Shown one piece after another: positions 19,623 to 32,047 of a stretch of DNA of 64,000 nt. The notes below the pieces were generated by a model. It searched no databases and was not told the origin of the DNA. It saw only the letters and a list, made by a program, of their open reading frames with translations. The DNA is from Thermogutta terrifontis (GTDB taxonomy: Bacteria > Planctomycetota > Planctomycetia > Pirellulales > Thermoguttaceae): contig NZ_CP018477.1 in assembly GCF_002277955.1 (NCBI RefSeq), positions 3,493,206 through 3,557,205 of the forward strand. Direction: 5' to 3'. Made by a program: the position numbers and the translations under genes. Every line of letters begins with the position of its first letter. Positions within the stretch are counted from its first letter, which is position 1.

Positions 19623-20348
19623 ATGAGTCGCAGGGTCGTCATTTTCCAGAATGCACCGGGAGAGCCGCCCGGGCAGATTGCTGATTTTCTCATGTGGGCT
19701 GGTGTGGAGTGCGAAATCCTCCCCCTTTATTCCCACGTTCCAAACGATCTGGACTGGGAAAATCTGGCGGGTCTGGTCGCACTGGGTGGCCCAATGAACG
19801 TCGATGAGGTGGACAAATTCCCCTATCTTGCCCGCGAAAAGGAATGGCTCATCCAGGCTGTGCGACGCGAAATCCCGGTTTTGGGCATCTGTTTGGGCGC
19901 CCAACTGCTTGCCCGCTGTTTGAATGCCCGGGTCTATCCCAATCCGGTCAAAGAAATCGGCTGGTACGAGGTGAGTTTCACTCCGGCGACGGCGAGTGAT
20001 GCACTTTTCCGTGGAGTGCCCTGGCGGGGGACCGTTTTCCAGTGGCACGGCGACACCTTCACGCTTCCCGAAGGAGCCTTTTTGCTGGCCACCGCAAGCG
20101 ACTGTGTCAACCAGGCTTTCCGCTATGGGACGTGTGCGTGGGGCCTTCAGTTTCATTTGGAGGTGACACCCTCCCTGGTGGAAGCATGGATGGAGTCAGC
20201 AGAAGCGAGCGGTGAGCTGGAACAGCTCGGTGTATCAAAAAGGCAAATTCTTGAGCAAAGCCGCCACCAGTTCGAGCGGATGCAGCGTTTGGCGGAAGTC
20301 GTGTTTCCCCGTTTTGCCCGGCTGTGCGCCCTGGGCGTTGCCCGGTGA
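19623..20348 (+). CDS. class I glutamine amidotransferase-like protein
   Basis: About 241 residues. The ATG at 19623 (MSRRVVIFQN) fits the family start; a GTG 24 bases upstream is possible, and neither has a clear ribosome site. The type-1 glutamine amidotransferase fold is shown by the nucleophile motif GICLGAQL (Cys ~89) and the His of LQFHLEVTP (~177), with the Glu two residues on completing the Cys-His-Glu triad. Stand-alone members related to GMP synthase glutaminase domains either hydrolyse glutamine for a partner or act on gamma-glutamyl compounds. No synthase partner is adjacent, so the substrate is unresolved. The gene ends immediately before the first hairpin array. Confidence 0.85.
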   Translation: MSRRVVIFQNAPGEPPGQIADFLMWAGVECEILPLYSHVPNDLDWENLAGLVALGGPMNVDEVDKFPYLAREKEWLIQAVRREIPVLGICLGAQLLARCLNARVYPNPVKEIGWYEVSFTPATASDALFRGVPWRGTVFQWHGDTFTLPEGAFLLATASDCVNQAFRYGTCAWGLQFHLEVTPSLVEAWMESAEASGELEQLGVSKRQILEQSRHQFERMQRLAEVVFPRFARLCALGVAR

Positions 20349-20369
20349 AAAGAGGGGGCCCTTTCGCAT

Positions 20370-20861
20370 TTGGAGTGCGGCGACTTATGGAGTGCGGCGA
20401 TTCATCGCCGCTTTCTGACGAAGGCTTCAGCCTTCACGACCTTGGCGTTTGCGGCGTCGGAGGGACCCGCTTGTCGGGTCCGATGAACACCGATTGATGA
20501 CCCATCCCTCCTCATCGGGCACGACGAGCGTGCCCCTCCGACCTTTCGGAGGGACCTGCTTGTCAGGTCCGTTTTTTCGAAGGGACGTGCTTGTCACGTC
20601 CGCTTATCAACGTTCGCTTATCCGTTGCCTTTCGGCGGGGACTAAAGTCCCGCGCCGAAAGCGGGGCTAAAGCCCCGCACTCCATATGGAGTGCGGCGAT
20701 TTATCGCCGCTTTCTCGCGAAGGCTTCAGCCTTCGCAATGCTGGGGTGTAGCTCTTCAATGCCCCACAGATTAAGCCGCGCTAGCAACGCCCGTTTGCAC
20801 TTTCGGGTTTCCGGCGGGGACTAAAGTCCCGCGCGGAAAGCGGGGCTGAAGCCCCGCACTC
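20370..20861. repeat. hairpin repeat array 1
   Basis: Nearly 500 bases made of short, mostly perfect hairpins separated by brief linkers. Two loop classes occur. Five-base loop: stems GGACCCG (20463), GGGCACG (20517), GGACCTG (20552) and GGACGTG (20583), with loop CTTGT or ACGAG. Two-base loop: GCGGCGAT (20394, 20693), GAAGGCT (20420), GCGAAGGCT (20717) and GCGGGGCT (20661, 20840), with loops TC, TT, AA or GA. Each arm is matched exactly by its partner although the stem sequence differs between copies. Reading frames across the array are artefacts of the repeats. The 3' two thirds closely matches array 2. Confidence 0.9.
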
Positions 20862-20872
20862 CAAAAAACTAC

Positions 20873-20901
20873 TTGACGACCCCCAAATTGCAACCTAGGG
20901 T
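20873..20901 (+). promoter_or_regulatory. possible promoter for the chemoreceptor gene
   Basis: TTGACG (20873-20878; five of six match -35), 17-base spacer, TAGGGT (20896-20901; weak -10). It is the first unique sequence after hairpin array 1. Confidence 0.3.
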
Positions 20902-21043
20902 CCAGTAGCTTCCCCATTTCGTTCGGTTTTCCGGCCGCATGGGAGTAGTCGGAGGACCGGGCGGTGTGGGGGGCACGGAGGCTTGGGTTGTCGATTGGCA
21001 GGGATGGGGTTTTGGCGATCCTTTCAGAAGATGGGGGTTTGGT

Positions 21044-23077
21044 ATGACTCTCAAATTGTCGCACCTGAGTCTCAAAGCGAAGTTGTTGGGGGGATTTCTC
21101 ACGGTGGCCGGCATCACCGCGGTGGTGGGCGGCCTGGCGTATTATGGGTTGTCCCAGTTGACCAAAGATGTAGACAACCTCGCCAACCAGGCGGTGCCCA
21201 CCCTCAAATTGACCAACGAAATGAACTTCTGCTTTGAAAGCATCGTGCGGATGCAGCGGACGCTCCTCAATCTGGATTTGGACATCGAAAGCCGGCAGCG
21301 GCAGTACCAACAGTTTCAGCAGACCCGCCAGGCCTATAATGACGCGATGAAAGAGTACGAACCACTGCGTCAGTTGGACGAAGAAGCCAAGATCTGGCAG
21401 GAATTCAAGGCCGAATTGGACCAAACGATGCAGGAAAACGACAAATTCTTCGCCCTTGCCCGGCAATTTGACGAGATGCTGGCCAAATGCCAGCCGGATG
21501 AAAATGGCAAGCGGCAACTTTTGGCAGCGACGGCGTACCAATGCCAGTATTGGAAGACCCAACTGGGATTGGATTTCGCGACTGTTTGGACAACCCTCAA
21601 AAATGTCGTGATGCGTGCCGGAGACCCCGAGGGATACAAAGCCGCGATGGACCAATACACCACGGCCAAAAAGCAGTTTGAAACATCTGTAACCGAATTG
21701 GCCAAACGGATGCCGCGGGCAGGGTTGACCACAGAGGCTCTGGACGATTTCAGCAAGGCTGTCCGCGACCTGTGCGAGGCGTATGAAAAGGCCCTCGCCA
21801 AATACGATCACTCTGACCCGCAGCTCATCGCCAAAGTGGACGGGGACGTGAAGGGCCTGGGGCAGAATTGCTGGGCGATCTACAAAGAACTGGAGGATGT
21901 CGTGCACGGACACGTTAATAGAATCGAGTCGCTCGCTGCCGAAATGCGGCACCAAGCCATGGATGTTTGTCGCATCCATATGGACAACCAGCAGGAGCGG
22001 CTCGAGAAGATCGCGAAGCTCTGGCAGGACGAGTCTGATCGGATGGCAAGGGAAGGTCTTGCCATGGCCAGTTTTGCCAAGACGCTGGCCCTGGGAGCTA
22101 CCGGGCTGGGTGTGGTTGTGGCCGTGGTTCTGGGATTTGTCCTGGCCACCAGCATCATCCGCCCGGTGAACAGGGTCGTCGATATGCTGAAGGATGTGTC
22201 TGAGGGAGAGGGAGACCTCACAAAGCGGCTGGAGATTCCCAGCCACGACGAGATCGGCCAGCTTGCCCGCTACTTCAACGCGTTCTGCGATAAACTGGAG
22301 GCGCTCATCCGCGACGTGGCTTCGAGTGCGGAGCAATTCAATGAGGGCTCGCGCGTGGTTTCGGAGGCCTCGCAGTCCCTGGCCAGTGGTGCCCAGGAAC
22401 AGAGCGCCAGTGTCGAGCAGGTGAACGCGACAGTTCAGGAAATGGTGCGAATGATCGAACAGGTCAAGGAGGCCGCCAGCGAGACCAATCGCCTGGCCCA
22501 GCAGGCCCAGACCGTCGCCCGCGAGGGAGGCGAGGCGGTACAGAAATCGGCCGAGGCGATGCAACTGATTCGGGCAAGCTCGCAGCGGATCGCCGAGATC
22601 ATCCAGGTGATTTCGGAAATTGCCAGCCAGACGAATCTGTTGGCGCTCAACGCGGCGATTGAAGCCGCCCGGGCAGGCGAGCACGGGATGGGCTTCGCCG
22701 TAGTCGCCGACGAGGTGCGGAAGCTGGCGGAACGGTCCAACCAGGCGGCCGGCGAGATCACCAAGCTGATCAAGGAATCCACCGCCCGCGTGGAAGAAGG
22801 CGCCGAACTCAGCCAGAAGACCGAAGAGGCCCTGGCACGGATCGTGGAGAGCGTGGAATCCACGAGCCAGAAGATCGCCGAGATTGCCAGTGCGGCGATG
22901 CAGCAGGCGGCCAGTGCGGAAGAGGTCAGCAAAGCGGTGCAGAACATCGCTCAGGTCGTGGAGCAGTCTGCGGCGGGCAGCGAGGAGCTGGCCTCCAGCA
23001 GTGAGGAGCTCTCGGCCCAGGCAGCGGCTCTGCGCGAGCTGGTGAGCCGGTTTAAGATTCGGGCAGCCACGGCCTGA
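21044..23077 (+). CDS. methyl-accepting chemotaxis protein
   Basis: About 677 residues. The ATG at 21044 ([15 protein letters not shown]) puts the first membrane helix directly at the N terminus, as usual; an upstream in-frame ATG at 20939 adds an atypical Gly/Trp-rich stretch. Order: helix 1 (~10-33), all-alpha periplasmic sensor (~35-345), helix 2 (~350-372), HAMP (~372-425), and a long cytoplasmic coiled coil with the conserved hairpin tip [18 protein letters not shown]. The tip would bind CheW and CheA, yet no che gene is in this window, so it is an orphan receptor. A C-terminal CheR-tethering pentapeptide is absent. The gene is enclosed by two similar repeat arrays, which could allow its loss by recombination. 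Confidence 0.95.
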
Positions 23078-23118
23078 CGCACGGTCGTAAACCCTCCTTA
23101 GAATGGGATGCTCGGGCA

Positions 23119-23151
23119 GGGGTGACTCGCGAGAGTCACCCCTGTGTTTTT
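23119..23151 (+). terminator. rho-independent terminator of the chemoreceptor gene
   Basis: Perfect 10-bp stem GGGGTGACTC / GAGTCACCCC with loop GCGA (23119-23142), followed by a T-rich tail ending TTTTT at 23151, 41 bases after the chemoreceptor stop. Confidence 0.85.
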
Positions 23152-23189
23152 GGCTTGGATGCGGTGCATTGTGACCGAGTACGGGATTT

Positions 23190-23813
23190 GCGGCGGGGAC
23201 TGAAGTCCCGCGCGGAAAGCGGGGCTTTATGGAGTGCGGCGATTTATGGAGTGCGGCGATTCATCGCCGCTTTCCGGTGAAGGCTTGAGCCTTCACGACC
23301 TTGCCGTTTGCGGCGTCGGAGGGACCCGCTCGTCAGGTCCGATAAACACCGATTGATGACCCATCTCTCCTCATCGGGCACGACGAGCGTGCCCCTCCGA
23401 CCTTCCGGAGGGACCTGCTTGTCAGGTCCATTTTTTTCGGAGTCGGAGGGACCTGCTTGTCAGGTCCGTTTTTTCGGAGGGACGTGCTCGCCAATTCCGC
23501 TTATCCAGGTTCGCTTATCCATTGCCTTTCGGCGGGGACTGAAGTCCCGCGCGAAAAGCGGGGCTTTATGGAGTGCGGCGATTCATCGCCGCTTTCTCGC
23601 GAAGGCTTCAGCCTTCGCAATGCTGGGGTGTAGCTCCTCAATACCCCACAGATTAAGCCGCACTAGCAACGCCCGTTTGCACTTTCGGGTTTCCGGCGGG
23701 GACTAAAGTCCCGCGCGGAAAGCGGGGCTAAAGCCCCGCACTCCAGGAAAAGCGGAGATTTATGGAGTGCGGCGATTCATCGCCGCTTTTTTACGAAGGC
23801 TTCAGCCTTCGCA
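23190..23813. repeat. hairpin repeat array 2
   Basis: Same modules, in the same order, as array 1, with extra and damaged copies. From about 23232 to 23744 it is a direct near-copy of 20380-20862, with scattered substitutions and small indels; one GGACCTG unit is duplicated (23412 and 23449). Some copies are imperfect, such as GGACCCG-CTCGT-CAGGTCC (23322) and a decayed one near 23479. A final GCGGCGAT hairpin and CGAAGGCT hairpin close the array (~23770-23811). Open frames through it share protein strings with those in array 1 only because the DNA repeats. Confidence 0.9.
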
Positions 23814-23836
23814 CGACTGGCCTTTTTCGGGTCAAC

Positions 23837-23864
23837 TTGTATTCTCACAAAGTTGGCGTATATT
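23837..23864 (+). promoter_or_regulatory. probable promoter of the btaA-btaB pair
   Basis: TTGTAT (23837-23842), 16-base spacer, TATATT (23859-23864; five of six match -10). It lies just after repeat array 2 and about 135 bases before the btaA-like start. Confidence 0.42.
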
Positions 23865-23999
23865 GGGGTTTATGTTTCGTTGGGGATGCCGGGCGGGATT
23901 TGATGGGCAGAAGGGCATGGTCCACGCAAAACCATTTCGATTGGCTTGCCATCCGTGGGGTGTGGCGGGCGGTCGTGAAGAAATACCGGAGTGAAAGCC

Positions 24000-31756: not shown

Positions 31757-32047
31757 TCTGGAGGGACCTATTTGTCAGTTCCGCTTGTCAACGTTCGATG
31801 TTCCACTGCAATCTACTCGGGTTTCGGTAGGGGCAATTGATGAATTGCCCCCACCACGCTGGTGACGTCCCGTGGGAAGGGACACCGGGCACGACAAGCG
31901 TGCGCCTCCGAGGTACATTCGCCTTCGGAGGGGCCTGCTTGTCAGTTCCGCTGTTCAACGTTGGATACTCCGTCCCGCATGAGCGGGCACGACAAGCGTG
32001 CCCCACCGAGGTACATCCGCCTTCGGAGGGACCTGCTTGTCAGGTCC
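31757..32047. repeat. hairpin repeat array 3
   Basis: Third cluster of the hairpin family between the glycosyltransferase and ftsK genes. Intact copies: GGGGCAATT-GATG-AATTGCCCC (31830-31851), GGGCACG-ACAAG-CGTGCCC (31985-32003) and GGACCTG-CTTGT-CAGGTCC (32029-32047). Decayed copies begin near 31764 (GGACCTA ... CAGTTCC), 31888 and 31930. CCTCCGA ... TCGGAGG stems link successive units, as in arrays 1 and 2. The rest of 31689-32295 holds no gene. Confidence 0.85.

Follow-up and report, generated by a model that had tools for sequence, protein, structure and literature searches.

Two arrays of short hairpins lie at 20370..20871 (array 1) and 23190..23812 (array 2) of a 64,000-nucleotide stretch of the Thermogutta terrifontis genome, referred to here as the window (G000:C1:3493206-3557205 of the 4,810,751 bases of genome G000). 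The arrays are very probably built of elements of the repetitive extragenic palindrome (REP) and REP doublet forming hairpin (REPIN) type that belong to the system of a REP-associated tyrosine transposase (RAYT) and carry a variant tag. The RAYT most likely reads the tag and the loop of each hairpin and accepts any paired stem. REP repeats are present in high copy in many bacterial genomes.

Such elements would be non-autonomous miniature elements of single-stranded DNA that are bound, cut and spread by RAYTs, which are domesticated HUH/Y1 transposases. By analogy with group 3 RAYTs, the enzyme would read the tag and some of the loop bases and need an unbroken stem, while mostly ignoring the stem sequence, and because of this a stem would change only when both arms change together. 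New stems would arise rarely, spread by copying and then be shuffled between units as whole hairpins. The two inverted ends of an element would carry different stems, as the folding computation suggests, since identical ends would anneal to each other as a single long hairpin, and the small hairpins read by the enzyme would be concealed; the need for mutually different ends would in turn be a reason for several stems being kept side by side.

The tagged hairpin units

The arrays contain two classes of hairpin, both with an unpaired GGAG 5′ of the stem. Class A units have the form GGAG-T-(8-bp stem)-2-base loop and, as judged by eye, usually have a second hairpin after them; class B units have the form GGAG-(7-bp stem) with a loop of CTTGT or CTCGT. 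A GC-rich palindrome adjoining the tag and closed by a short loop is the arrangement expected of a REP, and the units alternate in orientation in the manner of bacterial interspersed mosaic elements (BIMEs). The original prediction, which was made from the window alone, had listed five-base-loop hairpins with the stems GGACCCG/CGGGTCC, GGACCTG/CAGGTCC, GGACGTG/CACGTCC and GGGCACG/CGTGCCC, and two-base-loop hairpins with the stems GCGGCGAT, GCGAAGGCT and GCGGGGCT. All of these are present. What it had left unmentioned is the unpaired GGAG in front of each stem, the feature that is diagnostic. The more than 20 hairpins that it counted are found if 6-bp stems are included, and not among array units with stems of at least 7 bp alone. 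There are 21 non-overlapping perfect hairpins of at least 7 bp in 20370-23813, a listing from which the non-overlap rule hides at least 4 array units and of which five are not array units (two in the chemotaxis gene between the arrays, one at 23117 and two junction palindromes).

Searching G000 for the class B pattern gave 519 matches (254 + 265) when up to 2 mismatches were allowed and 522 (259 + 263) when four bases were left free in each arm; the reversed control gave 0 for both, so the repeat is not a product of chance. A shorter pattern without the tag gave 557 matches, with 4 in the reversed control. The density of 62 units in twenty evenly spaced 20-kb stretches corresponds to ~750 per genome, and REPs are expected at more than 100 per genome. 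A class A search, for GGAGT, eight bases, two pyrimidines and eight bases, returned 254 sites over 464 kb; all eight pairs form in 18 of them, none has 6 or 7, and the rest, with at most 5 pairs, are background.

Conservation of pairing in class B

To collect class B units only the tag, the outer GG/CC and the loop were specified (GGAGGG-N5-CTYGT-N5-CC), so the inner five pairs of the stem are unconditioned. The G000 sample of 1.244 Mb (26% of the genome) comprised 400 kb of evenly spaced sequence, the window and 780 kb picked for repeats. A related genome is the draft of a sister species, Thermogutta sp. MAG-77 (G061), with long syntenic matches that are 79-93% identical in 25 of 29 cases. 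The loci sampled in it were those that class B or array searches had matched; they gave 230 units, or 197 once duplicates were removed. All inner five pairs are perfect in 335 of the 412 units of G000 and 156 of the 197 of G061.

Covariation was assessed on 100 distinct 23-mers from G000, G061 and other genomes, with shuffles that ignore the relatedness of the sequences. The 26 rows from other genomes include probable chance hits (Caulobacter, Pseudonocardia), which were left in and count against pairing. The nested stem pairs 5, 3 and 6 take ranks 1, 2 and 4 of the 45 column pairs, pairs 4 and 7 falling outside the first 12, and the nested G of 223.8 compares with a shuffle maximum of 59.5. 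Pair cells that differ on both sides number 104; the shuffles average 42.6, none of the 500 reaching 104, and the six slid controls give no more than 19. A set of 42 further cells differ on one side and are still paired and 66 are unpaired. Counted by stem pair, both-sided change occurs at 4, which does not exceed the shuffles (3.6; 270 of 500). These results support the conclusion that in class B it is the pairing that is conserved rather than the sequence of the stem.

How stems change and spread

Four stems dominate and rank alike in the two species: GGGCACG, which we call type Y, and GGACCTG, GGACCCG and GGACGTG, the types X-CT, X-CC and X-GT. The 609 units divide into 483 with canonical stems (329 in G000 and 154 in G061), 50 half-and-half units, in which the two arms belong to different canonical stems (28 + 22), 68 with private mismatches (49 + 19) and only 8 that are perfect and non-canonical (6 + 2), these last with three sequences only, CCCCG, ACACG and ACGCG. 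Most of the covariation comes from four standing stems having spread, and not from copy-by-copy repair. Since the same four dominate both species, most of the paired change is common to many copies and predates the species split. The private changes look like decay. The original prediction of compensatory change is upheld in so far as pairing and not sequence is kept, and lacks support copy by copy, where the 68 + 50 mismatched or half-and-half units face only the 8 newly perfect ones. It had itself named as a refutation a lack of excess of compensatory over single-arm changes: inside the genome such an excess is, to the letter, lacking, while on the 100 distinct sequences the two kinds are about level and the both-sided changes lie far above the shuffles.

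It had also offered stem correction by template switching, in which one arm is copied from the other within a strand so that a one-arm mutation becomes a new perfect stem. The eight perfect non-standard stems are of the kind that this would leave. If the process were frequent, however, new perfect stems should be common, yet they are outnumbered 68 to 8 by private mismatches, and the same four stems dominate both species. Moreover, neither of the two well-flanked orthologous swaps between the species is a newly corrected stem. In one (L064/L011; L and G numbers are our handles for loci and genomes) GGACGTG faces GGACCCG, both perfect, with flanks of 93 and 97% identity, so that it joins two standing stems. 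In the other (L067/L253) GGATGTG/CACGTCC, with one T.G mismatch and a loop of CTCGT, faces a perfect GGACCTG, with flanks of 97 and 95%; here the unit of the sister species has the standing GT stem, altered by a single private mismatch. We therefore consider template switching very unlikely.

These swaps come from 70 syntenic reciprocal-best unit pairs between G000 and G061. Where both 40-base flanks are at least 60% identical (32 pairs), 22 have the same stem, 5 differ in both arms and 5 in one; at 70% or more (27 pairs) the numbers are 21, 2 and 4. About 10 of the pairs with identical stems come from regions where the two species are 95-100% identical, and these carry little information. The class B units L084/L245, L259/L219 and L111/L254 likewise have flanks 95-100% identical, in species that are otherwise mostly ~79-93% identical, which may reflect recent transfer or strong conservation.

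In X units the type of stem has little to do with the sequence that comes after it. For the 215 X units of G000 the share of unit pairs with the same X type, 36% at random, is 33-37% when the 40 bases that follow are 50-80% identical, 44% at 80-90% and 71% at 90-99.9%, so that a relation appears only above 90% identity. With the 40 bases 5′ of the tag the share climbs gradually, from 44% at 70-80% to 52% at 90-99.9%. In 7 of the half-and-half units (2 + 5) the contributing stems are unlike at two pairs, a sign of recombination through the loop they have in common. The private changes fall more often in the 5′ arm than in the 3′ arm (42 against 20 units in G000 and G061 together, p=0.007).

Unequal exchange and gene conversion within tandem arrays might alone shuffle the stems by turning over whole units, with a transposase no longer needed. 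Units of ~30 bp have been gained and lost between the two species, the 50 half-and-half units include the 7 that need two arm differences, and no RAYT was found in G061, all of which would fit. What turnover leaves unexplained is the conservation of the tag and loop, the dispersed copies and the hairpins around RAYT genes. As the whole explanation it seems to us rather less probable than not; it may well be the present-day process by which stems move between units, and is in part complementary to the RAYT explanation.

Different stems at inverted ends

Among head-to-head pairs within 110 bp the distance between heads is exactly 80 bp in 45 of 69 pairs in G000 and 33 of 39 in G061. Inverted REPs at a typical distance and in alternating orientation are the arrangement of REPINs and BIMEs. 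None of the 78 canonical head-to-head neighbours (≤110 bp; 50 + 28) and none of the 74 canonical tail-to-tail neighbours (≤40 bp; 54 + 20) has the same stem on both sides. Overall 0 of 152 inverted neighbours share a stem, where 27% would be expected at random, and all but one combine X with Y; this count excludes sixty inverted pairs with a non-canonical member. Tandem canonical pairs (≤45 bp) are X with X in 37 of 37. We also considered whether tandem neighbours avoid equal stems, and rejected it: the signal is weak (6 of 32 against 11.5 expected, p=0.044) and equal-type tandems are seen by eye in G064, a genome labelled 'uncultured bacterium isolate RUG14821'. In the same genome, again by eye and among the places listed, close head-to-head pairs differ in type in 4 of 4 cases, two of them with a mismatched unit, and close tail-to-tail pairs are of the same type in 2 of 2.

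DNA folding, computed at the default temperature of the package and not at the growth temperature of a thermophile, gave natural head-to-head elements a mean local-hairpin probability of 0.53-0.54 (45 elements, G000) and 0.73-0.74 (27 elements, G061), with mean inter-REP pairing of 0.36 and 0.20 respectively. When the Y end was replaced in the computation by a copy of the X end, inter-REP pairing rose to 0.99, the local hairpin fell to 0.00 and inter-REP pairing won in 72 of 72. The genome offers a clean case of differing REP ends, in which no inverted canonical pair shares a stem and the folding computation suggests a reason for this.

Hybrid elements also occur. Of the 313 X units, 50 have a class A hairpin as their closest neighbour (G000, 38 of 215; G061, 12 of 98). 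In 48 of the 50 it lies 35-37 bp beyond the unit, and the two classes are therefore physically linked.

RAYT genes

The original prediction had guessed at a Y1 transposase, and G000 does have one clear RAYT (G000:C1:896562-896966). It matches PF01797 (Y1_Tnp) at 25.8 bits (cut-off 23) and the REP-associated tyrosine transposase model NF047646 at 83 bits (cut-off 80), and its best match in the PDB is TnpArep 4er8 (E 2e-7). The 195-residue frame is intact, with an HUH motif (NHYH) and the catalytic tyrosine in YTHQNP, and the gene is bordered on either side by class A GGAG hairpins (L009/L307). A second, weak RAYT-like match in G000 at 3676610 has no class B neighbour. The weak RAYT-like frame at L329 2358-2897 (G000 C1 ~3676358-3676897) has a hairpin with a 17-bp stem (GTAGGGGCACGGC core) inside it. 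A RAYT of the same-genus genome G024 has GTAA-loop hairpins, of two different stems, at its flanks.

Class B around RAYT-like genes surfaced only with the NF047646 search. On C76 of G064 class B units lie around a RAYT-like frame (L328 2042-2148 and 2987-3502) and inside it (2510-2754). The layout on C28 of G062 ('uncultured Lentisphaerae bacterium') matches this, the contig ending inside the gene. At L328 2263-2901 and at L326 class B is inserted between the HUH half and the tyrosine half of a RAYT-like frame, which is open throughout, apart from a short run of N, and in which the hairpins are read as the peptide repeats GGSRLSRP and AATSAALP. Passages of PMC6006769 mention that some members of one subclass carry a REP insertion. 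GGAG hairpins also flank a Verrucomicrobia RAYT (L308, 1410-2181; 87 bits). They have the loop CTCCGT (CTCTGT in a variant) and the stems GGACGAC and GGCGCCG, and the locus is a further loop-fixed, stem-variable REPtron.

Occurrence in other genomes

Among 391 other Planctomycetota genomes, many of them drafts, the free-stem class B pattern is found in 1, as a single, incompletely paired match, and the drafts G024 and G050 of the same genus have none. Class B is present in 14 of the 16 non-Thermogutta genomes among the matches listed, with 1 to 107 copies each and 0 in the reversed control; the listed Caulobacter and Pseudonocardia genomes have 0 copies of the pattern. Eleven of these 14 are labelled as metagenome-assembled genomes of Kiritimatiellae, Lentisphaerae or Verrucomicrobia; the other labels are 'uncultured bacterium' (two genomes) and Paludibacteraceae (one). 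Horizontal transfer would fit the gap between Thermogutta and the Kiritimatiellae, Lentisphaerae and Verrucomicrobia lineages. Further stems occur in these genomes (GGTCGCG, GGCCGCG, GGACGCG), and with them stem pair 3 shows all four Watson–Crick pairs.

Taken further, the tag and loop would act as an address and the stem as a free label that has to match itself and not the stem of the other end, which amounts to a pairing code; such selection, with exchange of whole hairpins, would sustain several stems and drive the paired change, in a GGAG/CTTGT family found in distant genomes and possibly passed between them. We put this forward tentatively, as a possibility that has the balance somewhat against it.

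Evidence against a RAYT element and for an RNA

Several observations weigh against the RAYT interpretation. The tag of classes A and B is GGAG and not the GT[A/G]G that defines REPs, and for this reason the arrays are filed as a REP variant and not as a plain member. An RAYT of class B's own was not found in Thermogutta with Pfam Y1_Tnp or NF047646, the RAYT of G000 bordering class A, and in the draft G061 neither model finds a RAYT despite abundant class B. The Y1_Tnp model gave 53 matches in 15 genomes, and at the 30 loci examined class B adjoins the gene in none. The nearest cases are L199, where class B lies ~1 kb from a Y1_Tnp gene, and L175, where a hairpin like class B (loop CTTGC) lies in the Y1_Tnp locus. 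In G064, which has 107 class B places, a motif scan at 30 of them turned up no adjacent HUH gene. The two halves of the G064 frame score 38 bits each with NF047646 and the G062 gene 41 bits, all under the cut-off of 80. In the folding computation inter-REP pairing beats the local hairpin in 19 of 45 natural elements of G000 and 6 of 27 of G061 (25 of 72). Lastly, on the tagged strand G.T mismatches outnumber A.C (42 against 20, p=0.007; 60 against 37, p=0.025, with the half-and-half units), as a reading as RNA also predicts.

Nor was movement of the elements observed. The syntenic loci, which were picked for repeats, often set array against array, with gains and losses of units inside. Gap-tolerant alignment of 64 syntenic pairs, some of them paralogous, in search of empty sites in unique DNA gave only gains and losses within or beside arrays. 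By eye there is one candidate site (L136 5150-5344, L080 2950-3313, L010 11230-11430), at which G061 has an array and G000 none. The array lies between two copies of ~27 nt, with one base different, that are present once in G000; this could be an insertion with duplication or, conversely, a deletion.

The original prediction had proposed selection on a structured RNA or DNA. Read as RNA, the transcribed hairpins would serve as terminators or as stabilisers of mRNA, and the compensatory changes would keep the fold. The G.T excess speaks for this, as do the T-runs that follow four array units (three of class B, one of class A), and in passages of PMC3733652 REPs are described as plausibly transcribed. 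The G.T excess could, however, come from a transcript or from strand-biased C-to-T change, since C>T exceeds G>A on the tagged strand (23 against 11, p=0.058) and yields the same skew without RNA. Most single changes are uncompensated, the units alternate in orientation and the hairpins flank RAYT genes. A search of Rfam gave nothing over threshold, with a best score of 25.5 bits against a gathering score of 70 and two weak matches to asX2 that are far below. A structured RNA therefore seems unlikely to us; when both arms of a repeat change together, a functional RNA is not necessarily the cause.

Relation to known REP systems

The original prediction knew of no described function for hairpins of fixed loop and variable stem. 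Published work on REPs and RAYTs, in the passages drawn on here, together predicts the pattern, so stem-covarying arrays are not a new kind of thing. Modified REPs were found to keep their palindromes, 'suggesting selection for complementary mutations' (PMC2817692, 2010), sub-families of REPs have alternative complementary stem residues (PMC3733652, 2013), and compensatory changes in the hairpins of REPINs are described together with their clover and hairpin folds (PMC3116915). For two group 3 enzymes recognition has been measured (PMC8266576): the enzymes depend on the tag and on particular bases of the loop, cleavage is strongly reduced or nearly lost when the stem contains a mismatch, and swapping stem bases for their complements has mostly small or moderate effects.

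As far as these passages go, the arrays share with the GTAG REP superfamily and its RAYT REPtrons (PMC3733652, PMC2817692) the unpaired 5′ tag, the short palindrome, the alternating BIMEs, the repeats flanking a RAYT, the sub-families with complementary stem changes and a presence in Planctomycetes and Verrucomicrobia. They differ in the GGAG tag, in a 5-base loop, CTYGT, that is common to distant genomes and in inverted canonical ends that always have different stems. The REPINs of Pseudomonas fluorescens SBW25 as described in PMC3116915 likewise consist of two inverted REPs at a fixed spacing that form one mobile unit and undergo compensatory changes; clover and long-hairpin folds are discussed there, whereas here the end stems differ and the local (clover) fold competes in the computation. 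PMC3733652 sees 'no obvious explanation' for REP heterodimers, in the passage concerned, and suggests protection from SbcCD as possible. With the group 3 TnpAREP/REP systems of Stenotrophomonas and Marinomonas (PMC8266576) the likeness is in the small perfect palindromes and in the loop bases and integrity of the stem outweighing its sequence; tag and loop sequence differ here, and the present RAYTs are likened to those enzymes by analogy. The REP orthoswitch, named in PMC3686654, is also the replacement of one REP version by another, described in the passage seen for REPs at the RAYT gene, whereas here swaps are seen unit by unit in arrays. In IS200/IS605 elements too an HUH/Y1 transposase reads single-stranded end hairpins (PMC8266576 in part, and general knowledge); no such insertion sequence was seen at the arrays, and the two ends are inverted here.

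In the passages cited we found no account of the GGAG tag, of the GGAG/CTTGT family in distant genomes, of an exceptionless two-ends rule with a folding control or of orthologous unit-by-unit stem swaps. Literature searches for Thermogutta with repeats or palindromes gave nothing to the point, and those pairing GGAG, as the start of a word, with RAYT gave none, a weak negative that leaves aside figures and GGAG within longer strings. With four stems, one loop and several hundred copies, the family is a ready substrate set for asking which parts of a hairpin a RAYT reads.

Layout of the two arrays

The arrays flank a methyl-accepting chemotaxis protein gene (20939..23077, + strand), which lies outside the element; the outer neighbours are a glutamine-amidotransferase gene and a DUF3419 gene, and all the genes are on the + strand. 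Hairpin listing and array comparison show arrays 1 and 2, of class A and class B GGAG-tagged hairpins, to be duplicates of a single array, and they are not therefore independent. Their three shared blocks, of 207, 184 and 123 nt, are 94, 96 and 91% identical respectively.

In array 1 the class B units are an X-CC unit at 20459..20481 (+; GGAG and GGACCCG CTTGT CGGGTCC, stem-loop 20463-20481), its head-to-head partner of type Y at 20517..20539 (−; GGAG and GGGCACG CTCGT CGTGCCC, stem-loop 20517-20535), with 80 bp between the heads, an X-CT unit at 20548..20570 (+; GGACCTG/CAGGTCC, stem-loop 20552-20570, then GTTTTTT) and an X-GT unit at 20579..20601 (+; GGACGTG/CACGTCC, stem-loop 20583-20601) with its tag decayed to GAAG. 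Class A is represented by the units at 20389..20411 (+; GGAG T GCGGCGAT TC ATCGCCGC), at 20661..20683 (−; the other end, by eye, GGAG T GCGGGGCT TT AGCCCCGC), at 20688..20710 (+; GCGGCGAT, followed by a second hairpin, GCGAAGGCT, at 20717-20736) and at 20840..20862 (−; GCGGGGCT).

Array 2 has a class B unit with one mismatched pair at 23318..23340 (+; GGACCCG/CAGGTCC, loop CTCGT), a type Y unit at 23376..23398 (−; GGGCACG/CGTGCCC, loop CTCGT, stem-loop 23376-23394), two X-CT units at 23407..23429 and 23445..23467 (both +; stem-loops 23411-23429 and 23449-23467) and, by eye, a decayed unit at 23476..23498 (+; GGAG GGACGTG CTCGC CAATTCC). Its class A units lie at 23248..23270 (+; GCGGCGAT), 23570..23592 (+; GCGGCGAT, then a second hairpin at 23599-23618), 23722..23744 (−; GCGGGGCT) and 23764..23786 (+; GCGGCGAT, then TTTTTT and a second hairpin at 23794-23811). 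The mismatched unit, whose stem at 23322 had been taken for an intermediate of compensatory change, has one uncompensated change and is read as a decayed X-CC copy; the sister-species unit aligned with its array 1 twin is perfect (L206, on a contig that does not extend over array 2).

T-runs after array hairpins resemble intrinsic terminators at 20552-20577, 23411-23437, 23449-23475 and 23769-23792; terminator-like sites in 20300-23900 number 7, against 4.0 (sd 2.4) expected. A further family of repeats, the third, is class C. Its units have GTAG, the classical tag, followed by GGGCAATT, CATG or GATG and AATTGCCC; it is found at 31830-31851 of the window, at L029 and at other loci, and is interspersed with class B arrays.

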